A DNA stretch of 64,000 nucleotides from Lysobacter sp. S4-A87 (GTDB lineage Bacteria > Pseudomonadota > Gammaproteobacteria > Xanthomonadales > Xanthomonadaceae): the NCBI RefSeq assembly GCF_022637455.1, contig NZ_CP093341.1, positions 1,984,001 through 2,048,000 on the forward strand, in the 5' to 3' direction. Position 1 is the first letter of the stretch. Each line of letters opens with the position of its first letter. Below, one piece after another: positions 1 through 30,856 of this stretch. The position numbers and the translations under genes are program-made. Below the pieces are notes generated by a model. It was not told the origin of the DNA. It ran no database searches and saw only the letters and a program-made list of their open reading frames with translations.

Positions 1-1079
1 ATGGCGAACAGTCCCAGCGCGATCTTGTAGCCAAGTCCGCGATAGCGGATCGAGCGGACCTTGCCTCGATCGATCCACGGCATCAGGTACAGCACGCCGA
101 TCGCCAGGGCCATCACGATCACGCCGCTGAGCTTGTGCGGGATGACGCGCAACATCGCGTAGTACGGCGTGAAGTACCACACCGGCTTGATGTGCTCGGG
201 CGTGACCAGCGGGTTGGCCTCGGTGAAGTTGTCGTGCTCCAGGAACAGACCGCCCACGGTCGGAACGAAGAAGATCAGGAACGCGGCGATGAGAATGAAC
301 ACCACCGTGCTCAGCAGGTCCTCGACCGAGTAGTAGGGATGGAACGGGATGCCGTCCAGCGGGTTTCCGTCCGGACCATTGTTCTCGTGGATCTCGATGC
401 CGTCGGGATTGTTGGAACCGACCTCGTGCAGCGCCAGGATGTGCACGGTGACCAGCAACAGCAGGATGATCGGCAGCGCGATCACGTGCAGCGAGAAGAA
501 GCGGTTCAGCGTGGCATCGCCGGGCACGTAGTCGCCCATGACCCAGTGCTGCAGGCTTTCGCCCACCACCGGGATGGCGCCGAACAGCGAGATGATCACC
601 TTGGCACCCCAGAACGACATCTGGCCCCAGGGCAGCACGTAACCCATGAACGCCTCGGCCATCAGCACCAGGTAGATCGTCATGCCCAGGATCCACACCA
701 GCTCGCGCGGCCGCTTGTACGATCCGTACAGCAGCGCGCGGAACATGTGCAGGTATATCACCACGAAGAACAGCGATGCCCCCGTGGAGTGCATGTAGCG
801 GATCAGCCAGCCCCACTCCACGTCGCGCATGATGTACTCGACCGACGAGAACGCCTCGGTGGCCGACGGCTTGAAGTGCATCGCCAGGAAGATGCCCGTG
901 ACCAGCTGGTTGACCAGTGCCACGCTCGCCAGCGCGCCGAACAGGTACCAGATGTTGAAGTTCTTCGGCGCGTAGTAGCGGCTGGTGTGCGCAGCCACGA
1001 ACGAGGTCACGGGCAGCCGGTCCTCGACCCAGGCCAGGAGCCGGTTCTTCGGATGGATACGGACGATCTTCAGGGCCAT
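1..1079 (-). CDS. petB: Cytochrome b of the bc1 complex (3' end outside window)
   Basis: Integral membrane subunit of ubiquinol:cytochrome c reductase, which binds the two b hemes and forms the Qo and Qi quinone sites. About 359 codons are visible from the ATG at 1079; the C-terminus lies beyond the left edge. Two His pairs with the spacing of heme b ligands are visible (in YMHSTGASLFFVVIYLH and LHVIALPIILLLLVTVH), with multiple hydrophobic helices. The Qo-site PEWY motif reads PVWY, a variant known from some proteobacteria. The start is preceded by an AGGACAG ribosome-binding site. The gene normally follows the Rieske gene petA; here an Ohr-like gene ends 38 nt upstream instead and no petA is in the window. 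Confidence 0.95.
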   Translation of the reverse strand, partial: MALKIVRIHPKNRLLAWVEDRLPVTSFVAAHTSRYYAPKNFNIWYLFGALASVALVNQLVTGIFLAMHFKPSATEAFSSVEYIMRDVEWGWLIRYMHSTGASLFFVVIYLHMFRALLYGSYKRPRELVWILGMTIYLVLMAEAFMGYVLPWGQMSFWGAKVIISLFGAIPVVGESLQHWVMGDYVPGDATLNRFFSLHVIALPIILLLLVTVHILALHEVGSNNPDGIEIHENNGPDGNPLDGIPFHPYYSVEDLLSTVVFILIAAFLIFFVPTVGGLFLEHDNFTEANPLVTPEHIKPVWYFTPYYAMLRVIPHKLSGVIVMALAIGVLYLMPWIDRGKVRSIRYRGLGYKIALGLFA

Positions 1080-1117
1080 GGCGGTCTGTCCTGCCGGCTT
1101 TGTTCCGGCGTGGCGGT

Positions 1118-1645
1118 TCAGGCTGCGGCGCCGCCGGGCGGCGACTCGTTCTCGGGTGCAAGCGCCACGACGTGGTCGATGCCATCCCTGAACATCTTTG
1201 CGTAGGGGCAGATGCGCTCTGCGTTGCGGACCAGCTCGGCGGCACAGGCCCGCTCGATGCCCGGCAGGTACACCCGGATTTCCGCCGACAACAGGAACAG
1301 TCCGTCCATCGGGTCACGCGCGAAGGTGACGGCGGCATCGACGGTGGCGTCCTGCAGGTCCAGGCCAGACCGGATCGCCAGCAGCTTGAGCACGCCGTGG
1401 AAGCAGGCGCCATAACTGGCCGCCATCAGCTGCTCGGGGTTGCTGCCACCACCGGGGCCGCCAAGTTCCGCGGGCAGGCGCAGATGCGCCTCGAGGGAAC
1501 CGTCGTCGGACCTGGCGATGCCGGAGGCGCGACCGTGCGCCGCCTCGCCACCGGTTATGCGCACGCGACCGGTGTAGATGGCCTCGGCGTCTTCTCCGTA
1601 ATACTTGTCGAGCAGGCTTACCGGAGGTGGCTTCAACTGGCTCAT
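1118..1645 (-). CDS. Ohr/OsmC-family peroxiredoxin-like protein
   Basis: Predicted cytoplasmic thiol peroxidase that reduces organic hydroperoxides with a reactive Cys pair. The 175-residue product has Cys81 in SYGACFHG and Cys146 in ICPYAKMF, the positions of the two redox cysteines of the Ohr/OsmC fold. It is longer than typical Ohr (about 140 residues), with an N-terminal extension. The ATG at 1645 follows an AGGGA ribosome-binding site by about 8 nt; an in-frame ATG at 1669 is less well supported. A promoter of the family shared by five genes here lies at 1762-1832, which links it to the LysR regulator encoded just upstream. It ends 38 nt before petB and could be cotranscribed with it. 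Confidence 0.85.
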   Translation of the reverse strand: MSQLKPPPVSLLDKYYGEDAEAIYTGRVRITGGEAAHGRASGIARSDDGSLEAHLRLPAELGGPGGGSNPEQLMAASYGACFHGVLKLLAIRSGLDLQDATVDAAVTFARDPMDGLFLLSAEIRVYLPGIERACAAELVRNAERICPYAKMFRDGIDHVVALAPENESPPGGAAA

Positions 1646-1761
1646 GGTTTGTCCCTGTCGTTGTGTCATGCACGAAGCGTGTCCGTCCTTCGTGCCTCGT
1701 CCTTGCATACGGGACTGCGAACGCCGGCGCCCGTGTACCGGAAAGCGGTGATTCCGGGGCG

Positions 1762-1832
1762 ATGCTAGGTGTGGGGCCTGGACCGCAGTAGCCCTGCGGC
1801 CGGATGCACGGTGTTTCCCCACGCGCACCAAT
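1762..1832 (-). promoter_or_regulatory. LysR-type promoter, copy c (drives the Ohr-like gene)
   Basis: On the minus strand ATTGGTGCG begins at 1832, an AAACACCGTG block follows 17 nt later, CTACTG lies at offset 41 and CCTAG at offset 63 (1769-1765). The same elements at the same offsets occur at 3217, 6535, 6573 and 29976. A dyad centred about 60-70 bp before the inferred start is the usual position of a LysR recognition site. Here the right half of the dyad is AAA rather than CAA. Confidence 0.7.
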
Positions 1833-1849
1833 CGCCCAATCACCCCCGA

Positions 1850-2917
1850 TCAGCCCGCGATGGCACCGCCATTGCTGCGATGCGCATCGGCGGTGGCCTC
1901 CACTGGGGCCGCTTCGGCGTCGACGGCGTCGCCATGTGTGCGCGGCAGAGCGGTGGCAAAGTCCAGGTCCAGCGCGCGCACCTGCGTGGTGATGAAGTCG
2001 ATGAAGGCGCGGACGCGCTTTGGCAGCTGCCGCCGGCTCAGGTAGCACAGGTAGTGACCGCGGTCGTCGGGTGAGAACTGGGCCAGGCAGGTCACCAGCG
2101 TGCCCTTGCGCAGTTCGTCGCAAACCTCAAAGGCCGGGATCTGCGCCAGCCCCTGGCCCTCCATCAGCGCATGCAGCATCAGGTCGTCATCGTTGACCAC
2201 GATGTCGGCCTGCGGCGTCACGCTGTGCGGCCTGCCGTCGACCTTGAAGTCCCAGCTGCGCAACCGTCCGTTCGGAAGCCTGCGGTTGATGCATGCATGC
2301 GCGTCGAGCTCCTCGATCGATGCCGGCAGGCCCTGCCTGCGGGCGTAGTCCGGCGATGCGCACACGACCATCTGCATCGGGATGATCTGCTTGGCGATCA
2401 CCTGGCTGTCGTCGAGGCGGCCTTCGCGGAAGGCGACATCGACCCGGTCAACGGCGAGGTCGGGGGTGCGTTCGTCGAGCAGCAGCTCGATCGCGATGCC
2501 GGGGTAGCGCATGTGGAACTCGCTCATCAGCGGCGCGATGACCTTGCGGCCGAAGCCATGCGTGGCACTGATCCGCAACTGTCCGCGCGGCGGGCCGTCG
2601 CGCAGGTCGCGCATTTCCTCCAGCGCCTGCACGATGCGCTCGACGCCGGGCCGGCAGTTCTCGAAGAACAGCTCGCCTTCGGCGGTGAGCGTGGTCGAAC
2701 GCGTCGTCCGCGAGAACAGGCGCGCGCCGAGTTGTCCTTCCAGCTTCTGCACGCTGCGGCTGACCGCCGAGCGCCCGACTCCGAGGCGATCGGCGGCGCG
2801 GGCGAAGCTGCCCTCGGTGGCCACCGTGATGAAGGCCACGACGCCGGCATAGCTGGCCGAGAAACTCGATGCCAGCTGATCGTGTTGATCGGTCGGGGGC
2901 TTGGGCAGTGCGTTCAT
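1850..2917 (-). CDS. LysR-family transcriptional regulator (paralogue 1)
   Basis: DNA-binding transcriptional regulator of 355 residues. The winged helix-turn-helix covers about residues 25-85 (FARAADRLGVGRSAVSRSV is the recognition segment) and a periplasmic-binding-like effector domain covers about 110-320. The C-terminal 35 residues are an Ala-rich tail. The ATG at 2917 overlaps the stop of the sigma-4-only gene (ATGA), so translation is probably coupled. It is very similar to the LysR gene at 28887; both lie beside copies of the same promoter family, so it probably controls the flanking Ohr, decarboxylase, HD and hydrolase genes. The effector is not predictable; the neighbours suggest oxidative or electrophile stress. 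Confidence 0.93.
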   Translation of the reverse strand: MNALPKPPTDQHDQLASSFSASYAGVVAFITVATEGSFARAADRLGVGRSAVSRSVQKLEGQLGARLFSRTTRSTTLTAEGELFFENCRPGVERIVQALEEMRDLRDGPPRGQLRISATHGFGRKVIAPLMSEFHMRYPGIAIELLLDERTPDLAVDRVDVAFREGRLDDSQVIAKQIIPMQMVVCASPDYARRQGLPASIEELDAHACINRRLPNGRLRSWDFKVDGRPHSVTPQADIVVNDDDLMLHALMEGQGLAQIPAFEVCDELRKGTLVTCLAQFSPDDRGHYLCYLSRRQLPKRVRAFIDFITTQVRALDLDFATALPRTHGDAVDAEAAPVEATADAHRSNGGAIAG

Positions 2918-3177
2918 TGCGGCGGCGCCTTTTTCTTGTCACACATGGGTTGCAGGTACGTCAGCGTGTGTTCGCGGGCGTACTCGACGTGGGCCCGGCA
3001 GGTGTCCGCCGGTTCGCCGATCAGCCGGGCGATCTCGTCGTAGCTGGCCTCGAATACCTCGTGCAGCAGGAACGCCGCACGGACATCCGGTTCAAGTCCA
3101 TCGAGCGCGGAAATGAATACGGACCAGATGCGATCTGCCTTCGATGGCATGGCAGGGCTTCCTGTGGCTGTCGTCAT
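2914..3177 (-). CDS. Small sigma-region-4-only protein
   Basis: An 87-residue protein with no sigma region 2. Residues about 27-70 (LEPDVRAAFLLHEVFEASYD and the segment after it) align with region 4 of the ECF41 sigma factor encoded 1.7 kb away, where the matching segment is LSPEARAAFLLREVFDADYS. The remainder is a short basic tail. It cannot bind the -10 element alone, so it may bind RNA polymerase or -35 DNA and modulate the full sigma factor. It could equally be a remnant of a duplicated sigma gene. Its candidate promoter ends only 8 nt before the ATG, which implies a nearly leaderless mRNA. The stop overlaps the LysR start by 4 nt, forming a two-gene operon. Confidence 0.72.
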   Translation of the reverse strand: MTTATGSPAMPSKADRIWSVFISALDGLEPDVRAAFLLHEVFEASYDEIARLIGEPADTCRAHVEYAREHTLTYLQPMCDKKKAPPQ

Positions 3178-3185
3178 GCATCTAG

Positions 3186-3212
3186 GTCGTAGCGGCGGGC
3201 GCGTCTGTGACA
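3186..3212 (-). promoter_or_regulatory. ECF41-type promoter for the sigma-4-only gene
   Basis: Minus strand: TGTCACA (3212-3206), 16 nt, CGAC (3189-3186), then 8 nt to the ATG at 3177. The published ECF41 promoter motif is TGTCACA followed by CGTC-like bases. The same layout precedes the sigma gene at 4853. Confidence 0.65.
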
Positions 3213-3216
3213 GGCC

Positions 3217-3287
3217 ATTGGTGCGTCGCGCTCAACACTGCGCGTCCGGGCGGCGATCTACCGCGGCGACGGCGCGGTGCCTAGATT
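3217..3287 (+). promoter_or_regulatory. LysR-type promoter, copy a (drives the AhpD-like gene)
   Basis: ATTGGTGCG at 3217 forms a TTG-N12-CAA dyad; CAACACTGCG follows, CTACCG is at 3258-3263 and CCTAGATT starts at 3280. Spacing is identical to the four other copies. The dyad begins 5 nt from the divergent ECF41-type -35 element. Confidence 0.72.
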
Positions 3288-3350
3288 GGCGCCCAAGCAG
3301 GACGGCGACCGCCGGCCAGCCCTCCCCCATTCAAGAACGGAGAGTCCGCC

Positions 3351-3830
3351 ATGAGCCAACGCCTCGACTACCAGAAGCAGTCCCCCGAGCTGTTCAAGAA
3401 GTTCGTCGAATTCAGCATGCTGACCCAGAAGTCGTCGATCGAGCAGTCGATCCACGACCTGGTCAACATCCGCGCCTCGCAGATCAACGGGTGCGCGTTC
3501 TGCCTCGACATGCACATCAAGGAGGCCACCATCCACGGTGAGCGTCCGCTGCGACTGCACCACCTGGCCTCCTGGCGTGAGTCGCAGTTGTTCTCCCCGC
3601 GTGAGCGCGCGTCGCTGGCCTGGACCGAAGCGCTGACGCAGCTGTCGCCGCTGGGCGTGCCCGACGAGGTCTACGACCGCGTGCGCACGCAGCTGTCGGA
3701 GCAGGAAATCGTCGACCTCACCTACGACATCATGGCTATCAACGCCTGGAACCGCGTCAACGTGGGTTTCCGCACCACGCCGGGCACCGCCGACAAGGCC
3801 TTCGGCCTGGACAAGGCCGGGCTGTCCTGA
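3351..3830 (+). CDS. AhpD-like carboxymuconolactone decarboxylase family protein
   Basis: A 159-residue helical protein with the CxxCxxxH redox motif of AhpD-type peroxidases (Cys48, Cys51 and His55 in GCAFCLDMH). Members act as thiol-dependent hydroperoxidases; the true substrate is unknown. The ribosome-binding site is ACGGAGAG. Carboxymuconolactone decarboxylase genes are the classical genomic partners and targets of ECF41 sigma factors, and one lies downstream at 4853. The promoter at 3217-3287 also places it in the LysR-linked group. Two cupin genes follow on the same strand and are probably cotranscribed. Confidence 0.92.
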   Translation: MSQRLDYQKQSPELFKKFVEFSMLTQKSSIEQSIHDLVNIRASQINGCAFCLDMHIKEATIHGERPLRLHHLASWRESQLFSPRERASLAWTEALTQLSPLGVPDEVYDRVRTQLSEQEIVDLTYDIMAINAWNRVNVGFRTTPGTADKAFGLDKAGLS

Positions 3831-3886
3831 AACCACCTGTTGGCCACCAATGTGCCGGTCGCGACCGGCACGCACAGGAGACATCC

Positions 3887-4300
3887 ATGCGCATCCACCA
3901 TTCACTGGCACTGGCGGCACTGCTGCTGTCCGGCATCACGACGGCGCAGGCCCAGCACACCCACGGCGCCCCGGCCCCGATCGTCAAACCGATCCTGACC
4001 AAGGCGCTGCCCGAGTATCCGGGCAAGGAAGGCTTGATCCTCACCGTTGACTATCCGCCGGGCGGCTCCTCGCCGCTGCACCACCACGACGCCCACGCGT
4101 TCGTCTACGTCATCGAAGGTTCGGTGGTGATGGCGGTGCAGGGTGGCAAGGAGGTCACGCTGACGGCGGGTCAGAGCTGGAGCGAATCGCCGGGCGACAT
4201 CCACACCGTCAGCCGCAATGCCAGCCGCGACAAGCCGGCGAAGTTCGTCGTGTTCATGCTCAAGGATGCCGGCAAGCCCGCCGTGATTCCCGGCTCCTGA
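3887..4300 (+). CDS. Exported cupin-domain protein, copy 1
   Basis: A 137-residue protein with an N-terminal signal peptide (about residues 1-22, ending AQA) and one cupin barrel. The metal-binding motif SSPLHHHDAHAFVYVIEG near residue 65 provides His ligands, and the second cupin motif has PGDIHTVSRNAS near residue 103. Likely a periplasmic metal-binding protein that scavenges or converts a small reactive molecule; the activity cannot be named. It lies 56 nt after the AhpD-like gene, with an AGGAGA ribosome-binding site. The next gene is a clear tandem duplicate. Confidence 0.88.
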   Translation: MRIHHSLALAALLLSGITTAQAQHTHGAPAPIVKPILTKALPEYPGKEGLILTVDYPPGGSSPLHHHDAHAFVYVIEGSVVMAVQGGKEVTLTAGQSWSESPGDIHTVSRNASRDKPAKFVVFMLKDAGKPAVIPGS

Positions 4301-4331
4301 GCGGCCCAGCCACTGTCACAAGAGTCATCCG

Positions 4332-4745
4332 ATGCGCATTCACTCAGGTTTTCTCGTGGCGGCCCTGTTCTTCTCGGGCAGTGTCGGGGCCCATGGCCTG
4401 CACGGTAGCGACGCACCTCCCCCCGTCGTTACCCCGGTCATGACCCAGGCACTGCCCGAGTACCCGGGCAAGGAAGTGCTGATGATCACCGTCGAGTATC
4501 CACCCGGCGGTGCCGACCCGGTGCATCGCCACGATGCGCACGGATTCATCTACGTGCTGGAGGGCTCGATCGTGATGGGCGTGAAGGGCGGCAAGGAGGT
4601 CACGCTCCTGCCGGGGCAGAGCTTCCACGAGGGCCCTGCCGACCTGCACACGGTCGGGCGCAACGCCAGCAAGGACAAGCCCGCGAAGTTCCTGGTGTTC
4701 CTGCTCAAGGATGCCGGCAAGCCGGCGCTGACCCCCGTCCCCTGA
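4332..4745 (+). CDS. Exported cupin-domain protein, copy 2
   Basis: Tandem paralogue of the preceding gene: same length (137 residues), signal peptide (about 1-20, ending VGA), conserved core ALPEYPGKE and a C-terminus rich in KPAKF and LKDAGKPA. The metal motif is DPVHRHDAHGFIYVLEG, with Arg replacing the middle His of copy 1, so metal coordination may differ. The second motif reads GPADLHTVGRNAS. It begins 31 nt after copy 1 and shares the same upstream promoter. A nearby TGTCACA at 4308 is too close to the ATG to act as a -35 for this gene. Confidence 0.88.
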   Translation: MRIHSGFLVAALFFSGSVGAHGLHGSDAPPPVVTPVMTQALPEYPGKEVLMITVEYPPGGADPVHRHDAHGFIYVLEGSIVMGVKGGKEVTLLPGQSFHEGPADLHTVGRNASKDKPAKFLVFLLKDAGKPALTPVP

Positions 4746-4817
4746 CGGGGGGTTGTCCCTGGGATCGATGGAGGGCGCGGGCGCCTGGCGGCCTCCACGC
4801 CCGCCAAACGCCCCGGC

Positions 4818-4844
4818 CGTCACAATCGCGCCTTCTGTTTCGAC
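4818..4844 (+). promoter_or_regulatory. ECF41-type autoregulatory promoter of the sigma gene
   Basis: CGTCACA (4818-4824), 16 nt, CGAC (4841-4844), then 8 nt to the ATG at 4853. It matches the divergent element at 3186-3212 in spacing and distance to the start codon, and differs at one base of the -35. It suggests autoregulation and a leaderless or nearly leaderless transcript. Confidence 0.65.
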
Positions 4845-4852
4845 CTTGTCGT

Positions 4853-5740
4853 ATGGAAGGCGCTACCGACATCTTCACTCGTCTAAGGCCACGCCTGCTC
4901 GGCGTGGCCTATCGCATGCTTGGCTCCGTCGCCGAGGCGGAGGATGTCGTCCAGGATGTCTGGCTGGGCTGGCACGAGGCCGACGCCGCCGCGGTCGTCG
5001 ATCCCGAAGCCTGGCTGGTCACCACCACCACGCGACGTTCCATCGACCGCCTGCGCAAGGCGCGCAGCGACCGCGAGCATTACGTCGGTATCTGGTTGCC
5101 GGAGCCGGTCCTCACCGACGGCCCGACCACGCCCGAACAACTCCAGGAAGCATCGAGCGACCTGTCCATCGCCTTCCTCACCGTACTCGAGCGGCTATCG
5201 CCGGAAGCGCGTGCCGCGTTCCTGCTGCGCGAAGTCTTCGATGCGGACTACAGCGACATCGCCGCAACGCTCGACAAGAGCGAAGCCGCTTGCCGCCAGA
5301 TCGTGCACCGGGCCAAGAGCCAGCTGCGCGAGGAGCGGCCACGCTATGTCGTGTCGGCCGAAGCCCACCAGCGTCTCATGCAGCGTTTCGCCGAAGCCTG
5401 GAGCAATGCCGACTTCCAGGCGATGAAGTCGATGATGGCCGAATCGGCCACCCTGGTCGGAGACGGCGGTGGCATCGTCACCACCTTCCCCAAGCCCCTG
5501 GTCGGCGGAGATCGCATCGCACAGCTGTTGTTCGCCTGCACGCTGCGCGGCAAGGACCAGCTGGAGATCCGCCTCACCACGATCAACGGCCGCCTCGGCG
5601 TGCTGCGCTATATCGGCGGCAAGCTCGAATCGGCGCAGTCGTACGACACCGACGGCGAGCACATCACGCAGGTCTACGTGCAGCGCAATCCGGAGAAGCT
5701 CCGACGCATTGCCGCCAACCAGGCGGCATTGCTCAACTAG
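4853..5740 (+). CDS. ECF41-family RNA polymerase sigma factor with SnoaL-like C-terminal domain
   Basis: Extracytoplasmic-function sigma factor of 295 residues. Region 2 is at about 8-75 (AYRMLGSVAEAEDVVQD) and region 4 at about 112-165. A C-terminal NTF2/SnoaL-like domain (about 172-290) replaces the usual separate anti-sigma factor. The two motifs reported as signatures of ECF41 C-terminal domains are present in slightly altered form: DGGG at 204-207 and NPEKL at 279-283. In this family the extension controls activity. Gene context with a carboxymuconolactone decarboxylase fits the family. The stop is 9 nt from the convergent HD gene. Confidence 0.95.
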   Translation: MEGATDIFTRLRPRLLGVAYRMLGSVAEAEDVVQDVWLGWHEADAAAVVDPEAWLVTTTTRRSIDRLRKARSDREHYVGIWLPEPVLTDGPTTPEQLQEASSDLSIAFLTVLERLSPEARAAFLLREVFDADYSDIAATLDKSEAACRQIVHRAKSQLREERPRYVVSAEAHQRLMQRFAEAWSNADFQAMKSMMAESATLVGDGGGIVTTFPKPLVGGDRIAQLLFACTLRGKDQLEIRLTTINGRLGVLRYIGGKLESAQSYDTDGEHITQVYVQRNPEKLRRIAANQAALLN

Positions 5741-5749
5741 TGCAGGCAA

Positions 5750-6403
5750 CTACTCGAGGAAAGGTGCGCCCTGGAGGGCGTCCACCATCGACGGTGCCCG
5801 ATAACCCGGCACCAGCCGCTCGCCGAAGTCGCGCGCGAAATTGTCGTAGGTGGTCTCCGGGTGCCTCTCGCAGATGCCGCAGATGGCTTTGCTGAATCCC
5901 TTCTTGAACTGGAGGCGCGGGAACTCGGCAACGATACGCGCGAGCTGATCGGGCGGAATGCCGTCAATGCCCCAGCCGCCCCAGTCCAGACCCACGCCCA
6001 GCACGCACAGCGCGGCTTCGGCTTCCTTGTGCAGGCATATCGACGGCGTCGAGTTCAGCGCGATGCTGTCCCAGATGAGCTGGGTCCGACGCTCATCGAC
6101 GCCATGCTCGCGGGCGAAGGTGCGCGCCGCATTGGCGCCTTCCACCTCGAAACGCAGCGAACCGCTCACCGCATCGGTCAGACCGATGTCGTGCAGCACT
6201 GCCGACACGGCCAGGACCTCGGCGTCGTACGGCTCCGCCTTGTTCTGTGCGATCAATGTGGCGAACAGCCACGAGCGCATGACGTGGTTGAACAGGTATT
6301 CGTCGCTGTGCGCGCGGGCGAAGTCGATGGCCCTGGCGACCAGCGGTGTGTCCGGCACCGGCACACCGGCGAGAAGGCGCGAGGGGGTGTTGCTCGATGT
6401 CAT
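5750..6403 (-). CDS. HD-domain protein (cyanamide hydratase-like)
   Basis: A 217-residue metal-dependent HD-domain protein. The metal-binding residues are visible as a His in FNHVMRSW (about residue 41), the paired HD in SAVLHDIGLTD (about 74) and a later His in NSTPSICLHKE. Similar proteins are annotated as cyanamide hydratase-like phosphohydrolases, but the substrate is not determinable. The ATG at 6403 has a GGAG ribosome-binding site; upstream in-frame codons look non-coding. Its promoter (6465-6535) has the same architecture as those of the Ohr, AhpD and hydrolase genes, so it is probably in the same regulon. Confidence 0.85.
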   Translation of the reverse strand: MTSSNTPSRLLAGVPVPDTPLVARAIDFARAHSDEYLFNHVMRSWLFATLIAQNKAEPYDAEVLAVSAVLHDIGLTDAVSGSLRFEVEGANAARTFAREHGVDERRTQLIWDSIALNSTPSICLHKEAEAALCVLGVGLDWGGWGIDGIPPDQLARIVAEFPRLQFKKGFSKAICGICERHPETTYDNFARDFGERLVPGYRAPSMVDALQGAPFLE

Positions 6404-6464
6404 GGCAGCGCTCCGTTCGGGATGCAGGACGATCCGGTCCACGGTCGTGGGCGCGGATCGTTCG

Positions 6465-6535
6465 ATCCTAGGTCTCGCGCAACGCAGCCGGTAGCGTCTC
6501 CGGCAGGCCCACGGTGTTGCCTGGGCAGCATCAAT
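6465..6535 (-). promoter_or_regulatory. LysR-type promoter, copy d (drives the HD gene)
   Basis: Minus strand: ATTGATGCT begins at 6535 (TTG-N12-CAA dyad), CAACACCGTGGG follows, CTACCG is at offset 41 and CCTAGGAT at 6472-6465. It is arranged back to back with copy b, with 37 nt between the two boxes. Together they account for most of the 308-nt gap between the HD and hydrolase genes. Confidence 0.72.
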
Positions 6536-6572
6536 GCATGCCATCGATGGGTGGCGCGATCGGATGCCAGCC

Positions 6573-6643
6573 ATTGGTGCGCCGAGGTCAACAGCGTGGG
6601 CACCGGCGCAGGCCTACCGGCGCGACGGTTTGATTTCTATGGT
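6573..6643 (+). promoter_or_regulatory. LysR-type promoter, copy b (drives the haloperoxidase-like gene)
   Basis: ATTGGTGCG at 6573 (TTG-N12-CAA dyad), CAACAGCGTGGG, CTACCG at offset 41, and TCTATGG at 6636 in place of CCTAG. The -10-like element is the most diverged of the five copies. Confidence 0.68.
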
Positions 6644-6711
6644 TCACACACACGCAAAAACGCGCCATCGACCGGCGCCACTCCTTCTGCCCATTTCCGG
6701 AGAACACTCCG

Positions 6712-7737
6712 ATGCGCAAACCTTCGTCCGGCGATCGCGAGAGCCTCGCCAGCCCTGCTGTGGTCACCGCCGCCGACGCCGTCGACCCGACCCGTCGCCT
6801 TCTGCTCGCATCGAGCCTGGGCGCCGCGGTCATGGCCGCCATTCCCCTGTCCGCCACCCGCGCTGCACCCGCCCGCTCCAAAGTGTCCCCCACGTCCCCC
6901 ACGAGGAACCACGACATGCAATCGATCACCACCAAAGACGGCACCGAGATCTACTACAAGGACTGGGGTAGCGGTCAACCGATCGTCTTCCATCATGGCT
7001 GGCCGCTGTGCAGCGACGACTGGGACACGCAGATGCTGTACTTCCTCGACCAGGGCTATCGCGTCATCGCCCATGACCGGCGTGGCCACGGCCGCTCGAG
7101 CCAGACGGCGACCGGCAACGACATGGACACCTATGCAGCGGACTTCGCGGCCGTGGCGGCACACCTGGACCTGCGCGATGCGATCCACGTCGGCCATTCG
7201 ACCGGTGGCGGCGAGGCCGCGCACTATGTCGCCCGCCACGGCGCGGGCCGTGTCGCCAAGCTGGCGCTGATCGGCGCGGTGCCGCCGCAGATGCTGAAGA
7301 CCGCGGCCAATCCGGGCGGCTTGCCGCGCGACGTGTTCGACGGCATCCGCAAGGGACTTGCCGCCAACCGTGCCGGTTTCTATTGGGATTTCCCGGTGCC
7401 GTTCTACGGCTACAACCGTCCGGGAACGCCGCTCTCGGAGGCGGTCCGGGCGAACTGGTGGCGACAGGCCATGATGGGCGGTGCCAAGGCGCAGTACGAC
7501 TGCATCGCGGCGTTCTCGGAAACCGACTTCACCGAGGACCTCAAGCGCATCGAAGTACCGACCCTGGTGATGCACGGTGACGACGACCAGATCGTGCCGA
7601 TCGCCGACTCGGCACTGCTGTCGGCCAAGCTCCTGCGCAACGCCACCCTCAAGGTCTACAAGGGTTACCCGCACGGCATGTGCACGACCCATGCCGACGT
7701 GATCAATCCCGATCTGCTCGCGTTCTTCCGCAGCTGA
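6712..7737 (+). CDS. Alpha/beta hydrolase, haloperoxidase-like, with Tat-type leader
   Basis: A 341-residue alpha/beta hydrolase of the cofactor-free haloperoxidase/esterase group. It shows HHGWPL (oxyanion region), the nucleophile elbow GHSTGGGE (about residue 165), the acid in [10 protein letters not shown] and a His in YPHGM. Residues 1-52 are an added leader with a Tat-like RR ([15 protein letters not shown]), so the enzyme is probably exported folded. An internal Met at residue 69 (MQSITTKDG) marks where cytoplasmic relatives begin, preceded by a good GAGGAA site, so a second start is possible. Promoter copy b lies upstream. Confidence 0.9.
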
Positions 7738-7758
7738 TCCGGTGCAGTCATGCAGAAT

Positions 7759-7790
7759 CCGGGGCGCGTGGCAGTTGCCGCGCGCCCCGG
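7759..7790. terminator. GC-rich hairpin between convergent genes
   Basis: Inverted repeat CCGGGGCGCG...CGCGCCCCGG with a 12-nt loop, between the ends of the hydrolase (7737) and the GH109 gene (7804). No clear T-run, so bidirectional termination is likely but not certain. Confidence 0.55.
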
Positions 7791-7803
7791 TCCTTGCGGG
7801 CCG

Positions 7804-9159
7804 TCAGTAGTTCGCGTCGAAGGCGAAGATCGGCTTGCGCGACGCCCATAGCCCCTTGGTGAAGTCCGGGAAGTCCAGGGTCTTGAAGCCTTCCGCGATC
7901 GACTGTTCCGACAGCGGCGTGATGGCGCTCCAGGTCACCGCGTCGAAGATGTCGATCGGCATCGGCGCCCGCGCCTTGACCGCTTCGACGAAGGCGTGAA
8001 TCACGAAGTAGTCCATGCCGCCGTGTCCGGCACTGGCGGCATCGTCGGCGTACTTGCGCCACAGCGGGTGATCGAACTCGTCCTGGTAGGCCTGGAACGG
8101 CTCCCACTTGTGCGCAGGGCTGCGGCCTTCGATATGGATCGACTGGTTGAGGTCCATCCACAGGCCGTGCGTTCCCTGCACGCGGAAGCCCAGTGAGTAG
8201 GGCCTTGGCAGCGAGGTGTCGTGCTGCAGGATGATCGTCTCGCCGTTCTCGCAGGCCAGCGTCGTGGTGACGACGTCGCCGAGCTTGAACTTGACCTTCG
8301 TGCTCGGGTGCGTGTTGCCACCGCTCCTGGCCACGGTGTAGTCGTGCAACCCGCGCGCCTTGCTGGCGAAGCTGTTGATGTGGGTGAAGCGGTTGCCACG
8401 GTTGATGCCGGTGTACATCGCGCACGGGCCGATGCCGTGGCTGGGGTACAGCTCGCCGTTGCGCTGCACGGAGTGCTCGGTGCGCCAGCGCGCCTCCGAC
8501 CAGCCCTTGGGTCCGAACTCCACGCCACTGCCGTAGGGCTGCGACGGGTCGCCGGAGTTGAACTTCACTGCACGCAGGTCGTGCTGGTAACCGCCCTGCA
8601 GGTGCACCAGTTCGCCAAACAGTCCGGCGCGCACCATCTGCAGCGCGGCCATCACGTCGCGGCGGTAGCAGACGTTCTCCAGCAGCATGTAGGGCGTGCC
8701 GGTGCGCAACTGCGTCGACAGCACGTCCCAGTGGTCCTGCAGGCTGATGCCGGCCACCACTTCGCAGCCCACCGCGACCTTGGCCTCCATGGCGTCGATC
8801 GCCATCGGCGCGTGCCACTCCCACGGCGTGGCGATGATCACCGCGTCCAGGCCACGCTGCTGCAACAAGCGTCGGTAGGCGTGCGCATCGCCGTCCTGTC
8901 CGTACGTTTTCGGCGCGGTCTTTCCGGCCTTGGCCGCCATCTCCATGGCCTTGCCCAGCATGATCGGTTCGATGTCGCACAGTGCCACGACCTCGACATC
9001 GTCACGGCGCAACAGCTCCGTCAACAACACCTGACCACGCATGCCGGTGCCGATCAGACCCAGGCGGATGCGGCGCCCCGCGGCCCAGGCCGGCGTGGAC
9101 GGCAGCAGGCTGGCCGCAACCAGTGCGGCGCCTGCAAGGATGAAATCTCTACGCTTCAT
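7804..9159 (-). CDS. GH109 family alpha-N-acetylgalactosaminidase (Gfo/Idh/MocA fold)
   Basis: Exported NAD-dependent glycoside hydrolase, 451 residues, expected to remove terminal alpha-linked GalNAc by a redox-assisted mechanism. A Tat signal (MKRRDFILAGAALVA) is followed by a Rossmann motif G37-x-G39-x-x-G42. The family-typical segment NVCYRRDVMAALQMVRAG is at about 162-179. Tyr191 (GYQHDLR) and His241 (YPSHGIGP) match the catalytic Tyr/His proposed for GH109. It ends the operon GH31-receptor-GH109, 51 nt after the receptor gene. The divergent GalNAc catabolic genes support the substrate. A general sugar oxidoreductase of the same fold is the alternative. Confidence 0.88.
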   Translation of the reverse strand: MKRRDFILAGAALVAASLLPSTPAWAAGRRIRLGLIGTGMRGQVLLTELLRRDDVEVVALCDIEPIMLGKAMEMAAKAGKTAPKTYGQDGDAHAYRRLLQQRGLDAVIIATPWEWHAPMAIDAMEAKVAVGCEVVAGISLQDHWDVLSTQLRTGTPYMLLENVCYRRDVMAALQMVRAGLFGELVHLQGGYQHDLRAVKFNSGDPSQPYGSGVEFGPKGWSEARWRTEHSVQRNGELYPSHGIGPCAMYTGINRGNRFTHINSFASKARGLHDYTVARSGGNTHPSTKVKFKLGDVVTTTLACENGETIILQHDTSLPRPYSLGFRVQGTHGLWMDLNQSIHIEGRSPAHKWEPFQAYQDEFDHPLWRKYADDAASAGHGGMDYFVIHAFVEAVKARAPMPIDIFDAVTWSAITPLSEQSIAEGFKTLDFPDFTKGLWASRKPIFAFDANY

Positions 9160-9210: not shown

Positions 9211-12200
9211 TCAGAACTTGTAACCGGCGGTGAGGCTGTAGATCCGTCCGAAATTGTTTGCGTAGGCGGAGGAGAAGGCCATGAAGTCGTTCGGATCATA
9301 GAACGGAAGGCGGTTGAACACGTTCTTCACCGTGACGCCCACCGTCAGCTTCTCCGTCGGCCTCCAGCTCACGCCCAGGTTGGTCGTCCACCACGACGGC
9401 GCGCCGTCGCACTGGCTTGGGGACACGTCCAAATAGCCTCCGGTGCAGGTTTCCGTATTGTTGTCCTGCGCATCGATCTGCTCCAAGGCCCACCTGGTCT
9501 TGCCGACGTAGTTGACATACAAGCTGGTGGTCCAGTTCCTGAGGCTCCAGTCCGTGTTGAACGTGGCGCGCAGTCGCGGGTTGCCGTAGTAGCCAACGAG
9601 GTTGCCGTAGTACCAGCCGCTACCGTCGTCGGAGTTGTACATGTTGCGATTGGCAATGGTCGCGGCCACGCCGATGTTCAGGCCGCCCCATTCGCCCAGG
9701 TCGAAACGGCTGCGGGCATCGACATCGAAGCCATCCACCAGGGTACGGCCCCTGTTCTTGTACTGGCCGATGACGCTGGAGACGTTGCCCACGGTATAGG
9801 TCGGCAGCGTGCCGGGGCATGCCACGCCGCTGGCCGGGTCGGCGCACATCGCGGCCAGCGCGGCCTCGTTGGCGCGGTCGGAATCGGTGATCGGGAAGCG
9901 GCCCAGCGACATGATGTCTTCCGGCCTGCTGAAGTCCGGCGCGACAATCTCGTCGCGGCGGCTGATGTACCAATAGTCGGCCGACACCGACAACCAGTGG
10001 GTCGGTTCGTACACAAAGCCCAGCGTGGCGATATCGGCCGTCTCCGGCTTCAGGTCCGGGTTGGGCTGGGTCATGCGTGCCACGGTGCGGCCGCAATCGG
10101 AGTTGAGCAGCGTATTGCCCAGGTCCACGTCGCCCGCGCGGCTCGACTGCAACAGCAGGCCGGCGATCGCGTTGGTTTCATTGCAGCGGGTCTCGTCGCG
10201 AAAGCCGCCGAGTTGGGCGAACACGCCGCCGGTGCCGGACTCGGCCAGGCTGGGAGCGCGGAATCCCTGCGAATAGGTGCCGCGCAACAGCAGCTCCGGC
10301 AGCGCCTGGTACTTGAGGCCGATCTTCGGGGCAATGTTCGCATCAAAGTTCGGATACTTGTCCAGGCGCAGCGCCGTTTCCAGCTCCAGCTTCTCGGTGA
10401 TCGGGGCGACGGCCTCGGCAAACAGTGCGTAGGTGTTGCGCGCGCCATCGAACCACGAACCGCCCTGCTGGGTGATCAGGCCGTTGGCCGCATCCTCGTT
10501 GCCCGGGGTGTAGAAGGTCTCGCGGCTGACGTTGAAGCCGAACGCCGCGCGCACTTCGCCGGCCGGCAAGGTGTAGACCGTCCCATCGACCTTTCCGTCC
10601 AGGGTGTGCAGCCGGGTCCAGGACTGGATGTCGAACGTCGGGTAGGCCTCGCGCAGCAGCGCCGCGTTGGCTTCGCTGATCACGCCGAACTGGTAAGCCG
10701 GGTTGTCGGAGATGATTACGCGACCCGTGCCCGGGTCCGTGGTGAACGGGCCGAATGCCTTCTCGAAGCCGTCCAGGTTCACGTTGACGGTCTGGTAGGT
10801 GGTCGAATGCGAGCCGGCGGTGGCGAACGCGGTTTCCCAGTTCCAGTCGCCGATGTTGCCGCGCAGTCCGGCCAGCGCACGATAGCTCTTGTCGGTGTTG
10901 CGCTGCCCGAAGTAGTTGTCGCCCGCGTCCTGCAGAAGGTACTGCAGGCCAACCACGCCGCCCATCAACGCTCTCAGCTCGGGGCTGGCATGGTTGTAGA
11001 CGTTGTTCGGACCCATGTACGGGTAGAAGAACTGGTTGACGTTGTTGCCGGTGTTGCGCGAGAACCAACTGGTCGGGTTGCCGGTGGTGGTGCCGAACGC
11101 ACGCGGCGTGCCGCCGTTGGCGCGCAGGTCGATGTCGGTGTAGGTCGCCTCTGCGAAGCCCTCGGTGGTCTCACCCATCAGGAAGTGGCCGTTGACGTAG
11201 GCGGTGATGCGCTCCGACTCGGCGCCGCCGTCGATCTCGTTGTTCAGCCAGGTCTGCCAGACGCAGCGCGTTCCGGCGGCTTCGGTGATCACGTTGTTGC
11301 AGGTCGGCGCTGCTTCCTGCACGCGGGCGCCGGTGACCGGATCGAACGCGAAGTAGCTGCCAGGGTTGAACACGCCCGGCGCGCTGCCGGTGTCGAGGCG
11401 AAGATTGTTGATGTAGTTCGGGTTGTTGACGTAGAACTGGTTCGGCTTCTTGTCGTACAAGTCGCTCAGCGGAATCGCGTCGCGCCGGTACATGTTGACT
11501 GTGCCATAGACGTTGTAGCGGTCCTCGTCGAGGTCGCCGAAGCCGCCGGTGATGCTGGCCTGGTGCTCGCCGTAGCTGTCGATGCGCGATGACATGTCGG
11601 TGGTCGCGGTGACCTCGAGCCCCTTGTACTCTCGCCTGGTGATCACGTTGATCACGCCGGCCACCGCGTCGGTACCGTACACGGCCGAGGCGCCGTCGGT
11701 CAGCACCTCCATGCGTTCGATCGCCGCGGCCGGGATGGAGTCGATGTTGACGAACTGGGTCTGGAAGCCCGCCGGTGCGCCGTAGTACGAGAGGCGACGG
11801 CCGTTCAACAACACCAGCGTGCCCTGAGCGCCGATGCCGCGCAGGTTGGCCTGCGAGGCGCCGTCGGAGCCGGTGAACAGCGACGTGGAATCCATCTGCC
11901 CGGGTCGGTTCGCAGGGAGGTTGTTGAGCACCTGGAGCAAGGTCCGGGCGCCCATGTTCTCGATGTCCTGCTTGCTGATGATCTGCAGCGGCGACGCGGT
12001 TTCGCCGTCGATGCGCCCGATGCTCGAACCGGTGACTTCGACGCGGTCGATCTCGGTCGGCTTGTCGTCCCCGGCCGGCGCCGGCGCAGTTGCTGCGTCG
12101 GCGGCCGGTTGCGCGGGCGGCGCAGTCTGCGCGGCGACCGGCCCTGCGGCCAGTGCGGCGGCCAGGGCGATGGACAAGGTGGTGGCGGGGATGCAGCGAC

Positions 12201-28886: not shown

Positions 28887-29927
28887 ATGTCGATCGTCCC
28901 GTCACCACAAGCTTCGTTGGACCACCGCGATGCGCTCATCTCGAGCCTGGCCGCCAGCTATACCGGCCTGGTCGCCTTCATCGCCGTGGCCAATGAGGGC
29001 AATTTTGCCCGAGCCGCCGACCGGTTGGGCATAGGCCGATCGGCTGTCAGCCGAAGCGTCCAGAGACTGGAGGTGCAAGTGGGAGCGCGCCTGTTCTCGC
29101 GCACCACTCGCAACACGACCATCACCCGCGAAGGCGAACAGTTCTACGAGAACTGTCGGCCAGGGCTCGAAAGGCTGCTGCAGGCGCTGGAAGACATGCG
29201 GGACCTGCGTGAGGGTCCGCCACAGGGCCACCTGAAGATCAGCGCGCCCATCGGTTTCGGCCGTAACGTCGTCGCCCCACTGCTCGCCGATTTCCGCAGG
29301 CAGTTCCCGGAAGTGACGCTGGAACTGCTGGTGGACGATCGCATCGTGGATCTGAGCGCCGAGCGGATTGACGTCGCTTTCCGCGATGGCCGCCTGGAGG
29401 ACAGTCAGGTGGTCGCAAAGAAGCTGATCCCCATGCGGATGCTGGTTTGTGCGTCGCCAGACTACGCCCGCCGGCACGGCCTGCCGGCTTCGGTCGATGA
29501 ACTGTCCTCGCACGCCTGCATCAACCAGCGGCTGGCCAATGGCCGGCTGCAGTCGTGGGACTTCAAGGTCGACGGCCATCCCCGCACCGTTACACCGAAC
29601 TCAACCGTCGTCGTCAACGACCCATCGCTGGCGACCCAGGCGGTGCTCGACGGACAAGGCCTTGCCCAGCTGCCCGCCTATCAGGTTTGCAGCGCGCTGC
29701 GTGACGGCATGCTGGTGGCGTGCCTTGAATCGGTGGCACCGGACGATCGCGGGCACTACCTGTGCTATCTGAGCCGCTACCAGCTGCCCAAGCGAGTCCG
29801 GGTGTTCATCGACTTCATGACCGCCCGGATACGTGCACTGGACCTCGAAGGTCCACTCGCCGGACTGGGTTCGGATCAATCCCTGCGATCCGCGGACCCG
29901 ATCGCAGGGATTGGCGTTGCCGCCTGA
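28887..29927 (+). CDS. LysR-family transcriptional regulator (paralogue 2)
   Basis: A 346-residue LysR regulator closely resembling the one at 1850-2917: the HTH segment FARAADRLGIGRSAVSRSVQ is nearly identical and the effector domain aligns throughout (CASPDYARR, GLPAS, PDDRGHYLCYLSR, PKRVR). The ATG at 28887 follows an AGG ribosome-binding site; the in-frame upstream stretch resembles non-coding sequence. A copy of the five-member promoter family lies 49 nt after its stop, the only copy outside the 1.7-6.7 kb cluster. The two regulators may recognise the same or overlapping sites. Confidence 0.92.
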   Translation: MSIVPSPQASLDHRDALISSLAASYTGLVAFIAVANEGNFARAADRLGIGRSAVSRSVQRLEVQVGARLFSRTTRNTTITREGEQFYENCRPGLERLLQALEDMRDLREGPPQGHLKISAPIGFGRNVVAPLLADFRRQFPEVTLELLVDDRIVDLSAERIDVAFRDGRLEDSQVVAKKLIPMRMLVCASPDYARRHGLPASVDELSSHACINQRLANGRLQSWDFKVDGHPRTVTPNSTVVVNDPSLATQAVLDGQGLAQLPAYQVCSALRDGMLVACLESVAPDDRGHYLCYLSRYQLPKRVRVFIDFMTARIRALDLEGPLAGLGSDQSLRSADPIAGIGVAA

Positions 29928-29975: not shown

Positions 29976-30046
29976 ATTGATGCTGCGGATCCAACAGCGT
30001 GGTTCCACCCGGTTGCCTACCGCCACCCCACTGCCCTGCCTAGAGT
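29976..30046 (+). promoter_or_regulatory. LysR-type promoter, copy e
   Basis: ATTGATGCT at 29976 (TTG-N12-CAA dyad), CAACAGCGTGG, CTACCG at offset 41 and CCTAGAGT at 30039. Spacing is identical to the copies at 1.7-6.7 kb. It would start transcription near 30050, ahead of the unknown gene at 30123. Confidence 0.7.
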
Positions 30047-30122
30047 GTCTGACATCGACCATCGGTGGCACGACGCAACAGGAGTGCGACGCGATGAATT
30101 CCGACATCAGCGAGGGGTGGCA

Positions 30123-30455
30123 ATGCAACGTTCGCGCAAGAGCATCGACAGGAGATTGTCGTCACTGGACACATGCATGGTGACAATGCGCGCGCGATCC
30201 AGTCGCCGCGACGACATCCTGTCTTCGTTCCATTCCGTGTCGACTGCAATAATCGAAGAGGCTGGCGAGCACGAACGCTATGTATCTGCCAGGTTGCGTT
30301 CGATCCTGTTTGCAAACGGCTTCCATGGCGAACCATCCATCCATTCGGAAGGTCGTTCGCGCGAACTGAACCACTTTCTCGGACTGATCAACCGGATGGT
30401 CCACGCGTGCGTGCGGACGAGAGCATATCGGGGCACCCCATGCAGAGCGGAGTAA
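30123..30455 (+). CDS. Small protein of unknown function
   Basis: A 110-residue, Arg/Ser/His-rich protein that I do not recognise. There is no signal peptide or membrane helix. The ATG has a strong GAGGGG site and lies about 75 nt after the start expected from promoter copy e. An alternative 29-codon frame starts at ATG 30094 (AGGAG site) and overlaps it in another frame, so it may act as a leader peptide or reflect decay of an older gene. Composition is less GC-biased at third positions than the neighbours, consistent with recently acquired or degrading sequence. It overlaps the next gene by 16 nt. Confidence 0.45.
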   Translation: MQRSRKSIDRRLSSLDTCMVTMRARSSRRDDILSSFHSVSTAIIEEAGEHERYVSARLRSILFANGFHGEPSIHSEGRSRELNHFLGLINRMVHACVRTRAYRGTPCRAE

Positions 30456-30856
30456 GGATCGATCCAGCCACTTCAGTACAGCTGGGTGCCAACACCTGGA
30501 TTGCCATCGTCGAATCCCTTCCACGATCCATGCGGACACGTATCAGGAAGAAGAGCGGTGCTTACCAGCGATTCGTGGAAGCGGCGATCTGGGTGGCATG
30601 GGCGGATGCGCATTGGGCAGAGCTGCCGCCGGAATGCGGCGCCTGGCGATCGGTGCACGCGCGCTTCCTGCGCTGGAATCGTCGCGGCTTGTGGAATGTC
30701 GTCGCCATGCACATCGGAAACGAGGCATCCGCGCACCTGTTGCGACGCGCCGCAGGTGCAAGGCAGCGATCACGCCCGACGCTGCCGTTGGCGGCGCGCC
30801 CGATTGAGCCACCGCAGATACTTCATCCCGTTCGCAGCGTCGCGATAGTGGATTGA
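30440..30856 (+). pseudogene. IS5-type transposase N-terminal domain, isolated
   Basis: A 138-residue frame whose central part (about 40-90; AIWVAWADAHWAELPPECGA and the RFLRWNRRGLW segment) matches the N-terminal DUF4096-type DNA-binding domain of IS5-family transposases. The catalytic DDE domain is missing: the frame ends in a Pro/Arg-rich tail and is followed by extragenic palindromes and glmS. No terminal inverted repeats were found by eye. It is either a truncated insertion-sequence remnant or a domesticated DNA-binding protein; coupling to the previous gene leaves the second option open. Confidence 0.55.

Follow-up and report, generated by a model that had tools for sequence, protein, structure and literature searches.

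Results

The DNA analysed here (the window) is a stretch of 64,000 nucleotides from Lysobacter sp. S4-A87 (NZ_CP093341.1, positions 1,984,001 to 2,048,000, forward strand). Near its beginning lies a gene cluster encoding a LysR-type regulator (LysR-1), a small stand-alone sigma region-4 protein (sigma4), an ECF41 sigma factor and several enzymes, and the enzyme genes are preceded by copies of one predicted operator-promoter element. A model's earlier reading of the letters (the original prediction) had placed four copies, starting at 1832 (minus), 3217 (plus), 6535 (minus) and 6573 (plus); all four are present, and a fifth starts at 29976 (plus). The sites, the two LysR proteins and the enzyme genes are as follows.

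Site A, 1755 to 1832, minus strand: predicted LysR-type operator-promoter; ATTGGTGC from 1832, CTACTG at 1791-1786, -10 TAGCAT at 1767-1762
Site B, 3217 to 3294, plus strand: predicted LysR-type operator-promoter for CMD (AhpD-like), cupinA, cupinB and perhaps ECF41; -10 TAGATT at 3282-3287
Site C, 6458 to 6535, minus strand: predicted LysR-type operator-promoter for the HD-domain gene; -10 TAGGAT at 6470-6465; back to back with site D
Site D, 6573 to 6650, plus strand: predicted LysR-type operator-promoter for the alpha/beta-hydrolase gene; -10 TATGGT at 6638-6643
Site E, 29976 to 30053, plus strand: fifth copy, 49 bases beyond the end of the gene for the LysR-2 paralogue
LysR-1, 1850 to 2917, minus strand: LysR-type transcriptional regulator, Pfam HTH_1 (PF00126) and LysR_substrate (PF03466) above cut-off; proposed activator of sites A to D
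LysR-2, 28887 to 29927, plus strand: paralogue of LysR-1, 213 of 321 aligned residues identical (66%), upstream of site E
CMD, 3351 to 3830, plus strand: carboxymuconolactone decarboxylase, AhpD-like; PF02627, TIGR00778 above cut-off
CupinA, 3887 to 4300, plus strand: Cupin_2 protein
CupinB, 4332 to 4745, plus strand: Cupin_2 protein
Ohr, 1121 to 1645, minus strand: Ohr/OsmC-family peroxiredoxin; TIGR03561 109.5 bits, cut-off 88.85
HD-domain protein, 5750 to 6403, minus strand: weakly cyanamide hydratase-like, both matches below the model cut-offs
Hydrolase, 6712 to 7737, plus strand: alpha/beta fold; PF00561

Site A begins 18 bases beyond the end of lysR-1, and its predicted start near 1755 gives Ohr, which follows directly in the window, a predicted leader of 110 bases; site B and the sigma4-lysR operon are divergently oriented. 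Beyond site E, the frame at 30173-30856 (plus) matches a DUF4096 transposase (39.9 bits), and the original target gene of this site may therefore be lost. LysR-1 itself has the layout of its family, an N-terminal HTH domain followed by a substrate-binding domain; assignment to the YafC subfamily was rejected (NCBIfam equivalog, 204.5 bits against a cut-off of 470).

Five exact copies of one element

The pattern ATTGRTGC-N33-CTACYG-N16-YCTAK matches the window five times, always with 0 mismatches. In 100 dinucleotide shuffles, with up to 3 mismatches allowed, the mean number of matches was 0.05 and the maximum 1, compared with the 5 real ones, which speaks against chance, in line with the original prediction. 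When the whole genome (one contig of 3,888,505 bases) was searched for ATTGRTGC...CTACYG with any gap of 30-35 bases, the same five sites alone were recovered, every gap being 33, and the reversed pattern gave 0 matches; a 47-base pattern with more positions specified, in which up to 3 mismatches were allowed, likewise found these five sites only. An RNA element was rejected: an Rfam scan of window positions 1-9000 gave 0 matches above gathering score. Between 1000 and 7900 there are 0 consensus sigma-70 promoters (TTGACA/TATAAT; shuffles, 0.6) and 2 terminator-like sites (shuffles, 3.2).

To describe the element quantitatively, we used 38 wider stretches from relatives together with the window, which yielded 73 site matches, 69 of them unique (loci and genomes of relatives carry the labels L and G). 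Seven isolated matches (L096, with 2 mismatches; L097-L102, with 3) were excluded from the weight matrix and from the dyad test. The matrix was built from 61 sites, the window's five included; these five score 49.8-77.8, and the lowest of them still scored 42.6 when left out of training, while the best score in 30 random sequences of 128 kb was -1.0.

Symmetry rises above threshold at a single centre, offset 11, corresponding to TGRTGC-N7-GCAACA (62 site sequences). The symmetric element of the original prediction thus exists, but not where it was drawn: a TTG-N12-CAA dyad would be centred at 9.5, site A has AAA instead of CAA in the second half, and this form of the operator was rejected on the position of the centre. 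Both columns of T5-N11-A17 are invariant in the 62 sites, although both lie inside the search pattern and are hence partly selected. The remaining spacing had been given correctly: CTACYG lies at offset 41 and CCTAG or TCTAT at offset 63 from the ATTG, exact to the base. Past offset 46, outside the search pattern, T65, A66 and T70 each occur in 66 of the 69 unique sites and C64 in 64, and the TAnnnT block that they form is a predicted -10 element, sigma-70-like at its three conserved positions. For an independent test we turned to 15 loci outside the matrix training, from Rhodanobacteraceae (L108, L109, L111) and Burkholderiales, with sites picked on offsets up to 46 only: 25 of the 27 unique sites have TAnnnT precisely at offset 65-70, against a background rate of 0.2%.

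If transcription starts 7 bases past the -10, the box is centred at about -66. Papers cited by PMC number are drawn on here through excerpts of their text; in PMC5603801, LysR regulators are described as usually binding T-N11-A near -65, and the symmetry of the element fits such a site. The operator is accordingly best read, from its letters, as a LysR box, TGRTGC-N7-GCAACA (T-N11-A), near -66 of the predicted start. CTACYG occupies the -35 position and is unlike TTGACA. Conservation is confined to the spaced blocks, and the intervening sequence varies.

Sites and regulator occur together

The comparison with related species that the original prediction had proposed turned out in its favour: sites recur within the family, in Rhodanobacteraceae and in Burkholderiales. 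In a sample of 247 genomes of the family, searched with the 47-base pattern (CTACYG form, up to 3 mismatches), sites are present in 28. Close homologues of the cluster LysR (E<=1e-75) were found in 23 genomes, and all 23 carry sites, whereas among the 224 genomes lacking the homologue only 5 (G216, G071, G077, G201, G153) have a match, a single one with 3 mismatches each. The Fisher p of 7e-28 describes this contrast and is not a strict probability, because genome relatedness is uncorrected. The reversed pattern matched in 1 of the 247 genomes (G110); in 369 genomes drawn from the class, sites appeared in our own genome, and 5 of the 368 others had one 3-mismatch match each, with one match of the reversed control (G255). 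The G110 match and the 5 of 368 indicate that the five LysR-less matches are at chance level. In a draw of equal size from the class, LysR-1 homologues at E<=1e-80 were found in our own genome only. Together with sites flanking lysR, the 23 of 23 against 5 of 224 supports the earlier proposal that one cluster LysR would control several enzymes.

As a rule the sites flank lysR and face outward, towards enzyme genes. Across 24 distinct loci with a sigma4 gene, including two near-identical pairs, a site lies just downstream of lysR in 24 of 24, at 2-155 bases from the end of the LysR match, and an outward-facing site lies upstream of lysR in 23 (exception, L085). By position, the upstream site mostly drives CMD; of 23 family loci, 21 have an SDR-like gene behind the downstream site, which in the window and in L065 is followed directly by Ohr. 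Taking the best-scoring frame downstream of each of the 73 matches, we counted 22 SDR-like genes (one behind an isolated weak match), 19 CMD, 8 hydrolase, 4 of a second SDR, 4 HlyD-like, 4 MBL-like, 3 HD, 3 cupin, 2 Ohr, 2 RidA-like and two singles, the names SDR, HlyD, MBL and RidA being given by eye from the sequences and not from library profiles. Ten shared gene families are faced by 71 of the 73 matches.

In Burkholderiales the gene order is rearranged, yet sites still precede CMD and the SDR gene. Five of the 12 named loci (L112, L113, L116, L117, L120) have the order ECF41, site, CMD, cupin, ECF41 motif, lysR, site, SDR, Ohr; L114, L115 and L124 show parts of the ECF41-CMD-cupin-lysR-SDR-Ohr order, L118, L119 and L122 have sites in other layouts, and L123 has no site.

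The ECF41 factor and the promoter of lysR

The features bearing on control of the regulator are these.

ECF41 sigma factor, 4853 to 5740, plus strand: SigJ/SigX4 type with C-terminal extension; profile matches TIGR02957 and NF007214
Predicted ECF41-type promoter of the sigma4-lysR operon, 3186 to 3212, minus strand: TGTCACA-N16-CGAC; in-frame ATG 8 bases past the -10
Predicted ECF41-type promoter of the ECF41 gene, 4818 to 4844, plus strand: CGTCACA-N16-CGAC; ATG 8 bases past the -10
Sigma4, stand-alone sigma region-4 protein of 87 residues, 2914 to 3177, minus strand: PF08281 40.5 bits, cut-off 25.7; overlaps the lysR-1 start; alternative start 3150

The protein at 4853-5740 matches TIGR02957 with 353.1 bits (cut-off 323.25) and NF007214 with 305.3 bits (cut-off 271), both over nearly their full length. 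Because it thus passes the SigX4 and SigJ cut-offs, and SigJ is described as an ECF41 member (PMC8999054), we assign it to ECF41. Promoters of this group are reported to read TGTCACA-n16-CGTC and to serve neighbouring COE genes (Wecke et al. 2012, PMC3426412). The two copies of YGTCACA-N16-CGWC in our genome precede the sigma4-lysR operon (3212, minus) and the ECF41 gene (4818, plus); the reversed control gives 4 matches, so that the places of the motif count and not its number.

These places are conserved. In a wider survey spanning 693,794 bases in 52 loci, five duplicate records among them (L125, at 23% identity, had been dropped beforehand from a group of 22 loci), 59 of 65 looser ECF41 motifs lie upstream of lysR or ECF41. 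For a direct contrast we used 46 lysR genes, having dropped the duplicates L105, L106, L107, L110 and L121 and two lysR-2 genes far from ECF41 (window, L081): the motif precedes lysR in 31 of 32 cases with an ECF41 gene in the locus and in 2 of 14 cases without (Fisher p = 3e-8), and in the 32nd lysR gene with ECF41 nearby (L077) the motif is there with one mismatch. It lies 280-334 bases from lysR when the sigma4 gene intervenes and 54-102 bases when it does not.

On the CMD strand of the window, no ECF41 motif precedes CMD; a LysR-type site stands there instead, and no COE gene appears as a direct ECF41 target in the window. Since a predicted ECF41-type promoter precedes sigma4-lysR and LysR-type sites precede the enzymes, ECF41 would act on the enzymes through LysR rather than directly. 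Loci of ECF41 paralogues in relatives (n=5) include three of the same genus, L131, L132 and L135, with the motif directly before a CMD-like gene, which is the classic wiring; no motif is present in L133, and the one in L134 was not assigned to a gene.

The sigma region-4 protein

The best NCBIfam profile for sigma4 is SigJ (ECF41), with 46.5 bits over SigJ region 4. The gene stands before lysR in 24 distinct Lysobacterales loci; it was found neither in L108 or L109 nor in any of the 12 Burkholderiales loci. Over 68 codons and 12 pairs, the proportion of nonsynonymous differences (pN) is 0.025-0.186 and that of synonymous differences (pS) 0.107-0.570, the corresponding rates being dN < dS in 12 of 12, and an in-frame ATG lies exactly 8 bases past the ECF41 -10 in 21 of the 24 loci and 9 bases past it in L081; in L065 and L104 the distance to the first in-frame ATG is 36 bases. 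Motif-bearing ECF41 genes behave alike, with an in-frame start codon 8-9 bases past the motif in 14 of 16 distinct loci. These short distances suggest that the sigma4 (window 3177) and ECF41 (4853) mRNAs are probably leaderless.

Sigma4 may be a third working part of the system: a protein derived from ECF41, made together with LysR from a probably leaderless, ECF41-dependent mRNA, that would either aid LysR in recruiting RNA polymerase at CTACYG in Lysobacterales or damp ECF41 by competing for RNA polymerase. We put this forward tentatively and rate it as rather doubtful; if true, the system would be a hybrid LysR-ECF switch in which a detached sigma domain acts as co-regulator. In Bacillus, SigO/RsoA is a split sigma factor, and it likewise has a sigma domain as a separate small protein; the protein described here consists of region 4 alone, is of ECF41 type and is encoded together with a LysR regulator.

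Discussion

Taken as a whole, the locus is best explained by a serial circuit, to which we give a probability of roughly 0.8: ECF41 would drive sigma4-lysR, and LysR-1 (perhaps with LysR-2) would activate the sigma-70 promoters A-E. In this circuit, a signal would free ECF41, which would then transcribe sigma4-lysR from the divergent ECF41-type promoter (TGTCACA-N16-CGAC) and, here, its own gene from a promoter of the same kind. LysR-1, perhaps joined by LysR-2, would bind the T-N11-A box TGRTGC-N7-GCAACA centred about 66 bases before the predicted start, would contact a second conserved region (CCGTGCGTCCG ... CTACYG) that extends to the position of the -35 hexamer, and would thereby help ordinary RNA polymerase to initiate at promoters whose -10 (TAnnnT) is good and whose -35 is poor. 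The predicted targets are the CMD-cupin genes, Ohr (in relatives usually an SDR-Ohr pair), the HD gene and the hydrolase. In loci that, like this one, have the ECF41 gene behind CMD and the cupins, readthrough may also let LysR act back on ECF41. The inducer is probably an oxidant or electrophile.

Outside support comes from Burkholderia cenocepacia, where genes BCAM2749-2754 (CMD, exported protein, LysR, epimerase, ohr, ketoreductase) go up together in sputum, by 31-, 14-, 7-, 12-, 8- and 10-fold; ohr (BCAM2753) also reacts to H2O2 and to tert-butyl hydroperoxide (PMC2559838), and BCAM2748 is the ECF factor EcfK (PMC2194791). This series has the gene order of 5 of the 12 Burkholderiales loci: an ECF factor, CMD, an exported protein (cupin in the loci), LysR, an epimerase (SDR in the loci) and Ohr. 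In the Burkholderiales loci, unlike in the window, no sigma4 precedes lysR. In the excerpted text the authors left the meaning of the B. cenocepacia cluster open.

Several observations count against the serial circuit. The correspondence with BCAM2748-2754 is drawn from gene order and printed names only, and in one study BCAM2753 was not induced in H2O2-treated sessile cells (PMC2830190). The two ECF41 motifs of the window are one and two bases off the consensus TGTCACA-n16-CGTC, which is exact at the sigma4-lysR position in no more than 15 of 34 distinct loci, with near matches in the rest. The ECF41 gene has a motif just upstream of itself in only 16 of 32 distinct loci, so self-control would not be general. 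L067/L121 (one locus) and L108 keep the ECF41 motif with no ECF41 gene in the locus, and in G078, the source of L067, the best ECF41 match anywhere in the genome is 39% identical. The lysR-2-type loci L090 and L092 have no site. Finally, the L072 locus (G090) lacks sigma4, lysR-1 and ECF41, yet has three strong sites and one weaker.

This last case bears on an alternative that we consider unlikely, namely that some sites (C, D and E, for instance) are regulated mainly by LysR-2 instead of LysR-1, the paralogues splitting or competing for one operator. Site E adjoins lysR-2, the proteins are 66% identical over 321 residues, and LysR-2 may share the operator of LysR-1. Because the G090 sites remain after loss of sigma4, LysR-1 and ECF41, they could be served by another LysR or be relics; a lysR-2-type gene lies about 8 kb from the CMD site, an arrangement that speaks for a shared operator, though decay could also explain it. 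Against a leading role of LysR-2, 16 of the 23 LysR-bearing family genomes have a single such LysR (E<=1e-75), and L090 and L092 carry no site. No sites were found beside the lysR-2-type genes of L072, L081, L082, L090 and L092. At L072 12662-12874, two divergent sites stand 212 bases apart, sigma4, lysR-1 and the ECF41 motif being gone, a natural deletion.

Some LysR proteins repress, and layout alone is silent on the sign of control, so that the conserved box might be an operator by which LysR-1 shuts its targets off. We hold this to be improbable: a predicted box near -66 with a poor -35 and a good -10 fits an activated LysR promoter (PMC5603801), and the LysR and enzyme genes of B. cenocepacia rise together (PMC2559838).

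Very improbable, in our judgement, is a model in which the five-block element is read by ECF41, or by another alternative sigma factor that uses the stand-alone region 4, CTACYG being the -35, CCTAG the -10 and ATTGRTGC-CAACA left to an unrelated factor. In its favour, conservation of CTACYG at the -35 position is strong, and the neighbour of lysR encodes a sigma-like protein. However, Burkholderiales loci keep intact CTACYG sites with no sigma4 upstream of lysR, which weakens a reading of CTACYG by sigma4 as -35 in all hosts; L119 has intact CTACYG with no ECF41 gene nearby, and L122 and L118, which likewise have none nearby, carry sites with CTTCCG or CTACTC; the ECF41 motif is a different sequence, and the -10 is sigma-70-like at its three conserved positions. 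A dispersed repeat or recent duplication with no regulatory meaning, which five similar copies within one window might suggest, is scarcely credible and in our view already refuted by the family scan, the downstream families (71 of 73 matches face the ten shared ones) and conservation between orders. The spaced blocks alone are conserved, the sequence between them varies, and reversed-pattern controls are near zero.

The serial circuit shares much with the ECF41/COE systems as excerpted from PMC3426412: a factor passing the SigX4/SigJ cut-offs, a neighbouring CMD gene and, in relatives, oxidoreductase genes, and a promoter of the TGTCACA-n16-CGTC type. There, the COE genes are reported to be direct and the only detectable targets, and excerpts of PMC8999054 and PMC6180224 agree with direct COE control; here the motif stands before sigma4-lysR and before ECF41, and CMD has a LysR-type promoter. 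The terms SnoaL, NPDK and DGGG do not occur in PMC3426412, and we claim nothing from them.

A study from 2020, cited in PMC8999054, reportedly links an ECF41 factor to motility, so that COE genes would not be the sole ECF41 targets everywhere.

Classical LysR-activated promoters have a regulatory binding site with T-N11-A near -65 and an activation binding site near -35 (PMC5603801). The sites described here are similar in their T-N11-A at about -66 of the predicted start, the divergent pair at site B and the weak -35. They differ in that one operator form recurs at five promoters with a base-exact spacing from operator to -10, that one of these promoters lies just downstream of lysR, and that a predicted promoter of ECF type precedes the lysR operon itself. 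Both LysR promoters and ECF41 regulons are already known; the literature searched gave no case of the two joined in series with one operator common to five promoters. Among the matches listed, none joined ECF41 with a LysR regulator of these genes, subscription papers and preprints being mostly outside that coverage: in the excerpt of PMC7730460, which mentions both ECF41 and LysR, the passage concerns OxyR, and those of PMC7464077 and PMC7950407, on hypochlorite, have no bearing on the cluster LysR.

ECF41 factors are widespread and have been described as directly controlling one neighbouring detoxification gene or operon. The cluster points to a branch with altered wiring, represented in Lysobacterales (Xanthomonadales) and Burkholderiales, in which ECF41 would spread its response to several promoters by way of LysR. 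The operator-promoter pattern is exact enough for regulon prediction in new genomes, the circuit is a candidate explanation for the co-induced B. cenocepacia cluster, and the conserved detached sigma region-4 protein has a role that can be tested.

Variant sites in relatives

Weaker sites, with CTACAG or CTACAA for CTACYG and CTCCTA at the -10, occur at L082 7235, L089 8990, L091 6165, L093 9070 and L098 4319. The genomes of weaker sites hold extra LysR paralogues, and operator and regulator may have diverged together there. L094 has a back-to-back variant pair at 9746 (minus) and 9780 (plus), about G000:C1:2969745, with CTTCCG/CTTCAG forms and scores of 40.0/38.4. A third LysR paralogue (64% identity) lies about 3.6 kb away; the pair stands between HlyD-like and TetR-like genes (named by eye) and is perhaps a sister operator type.

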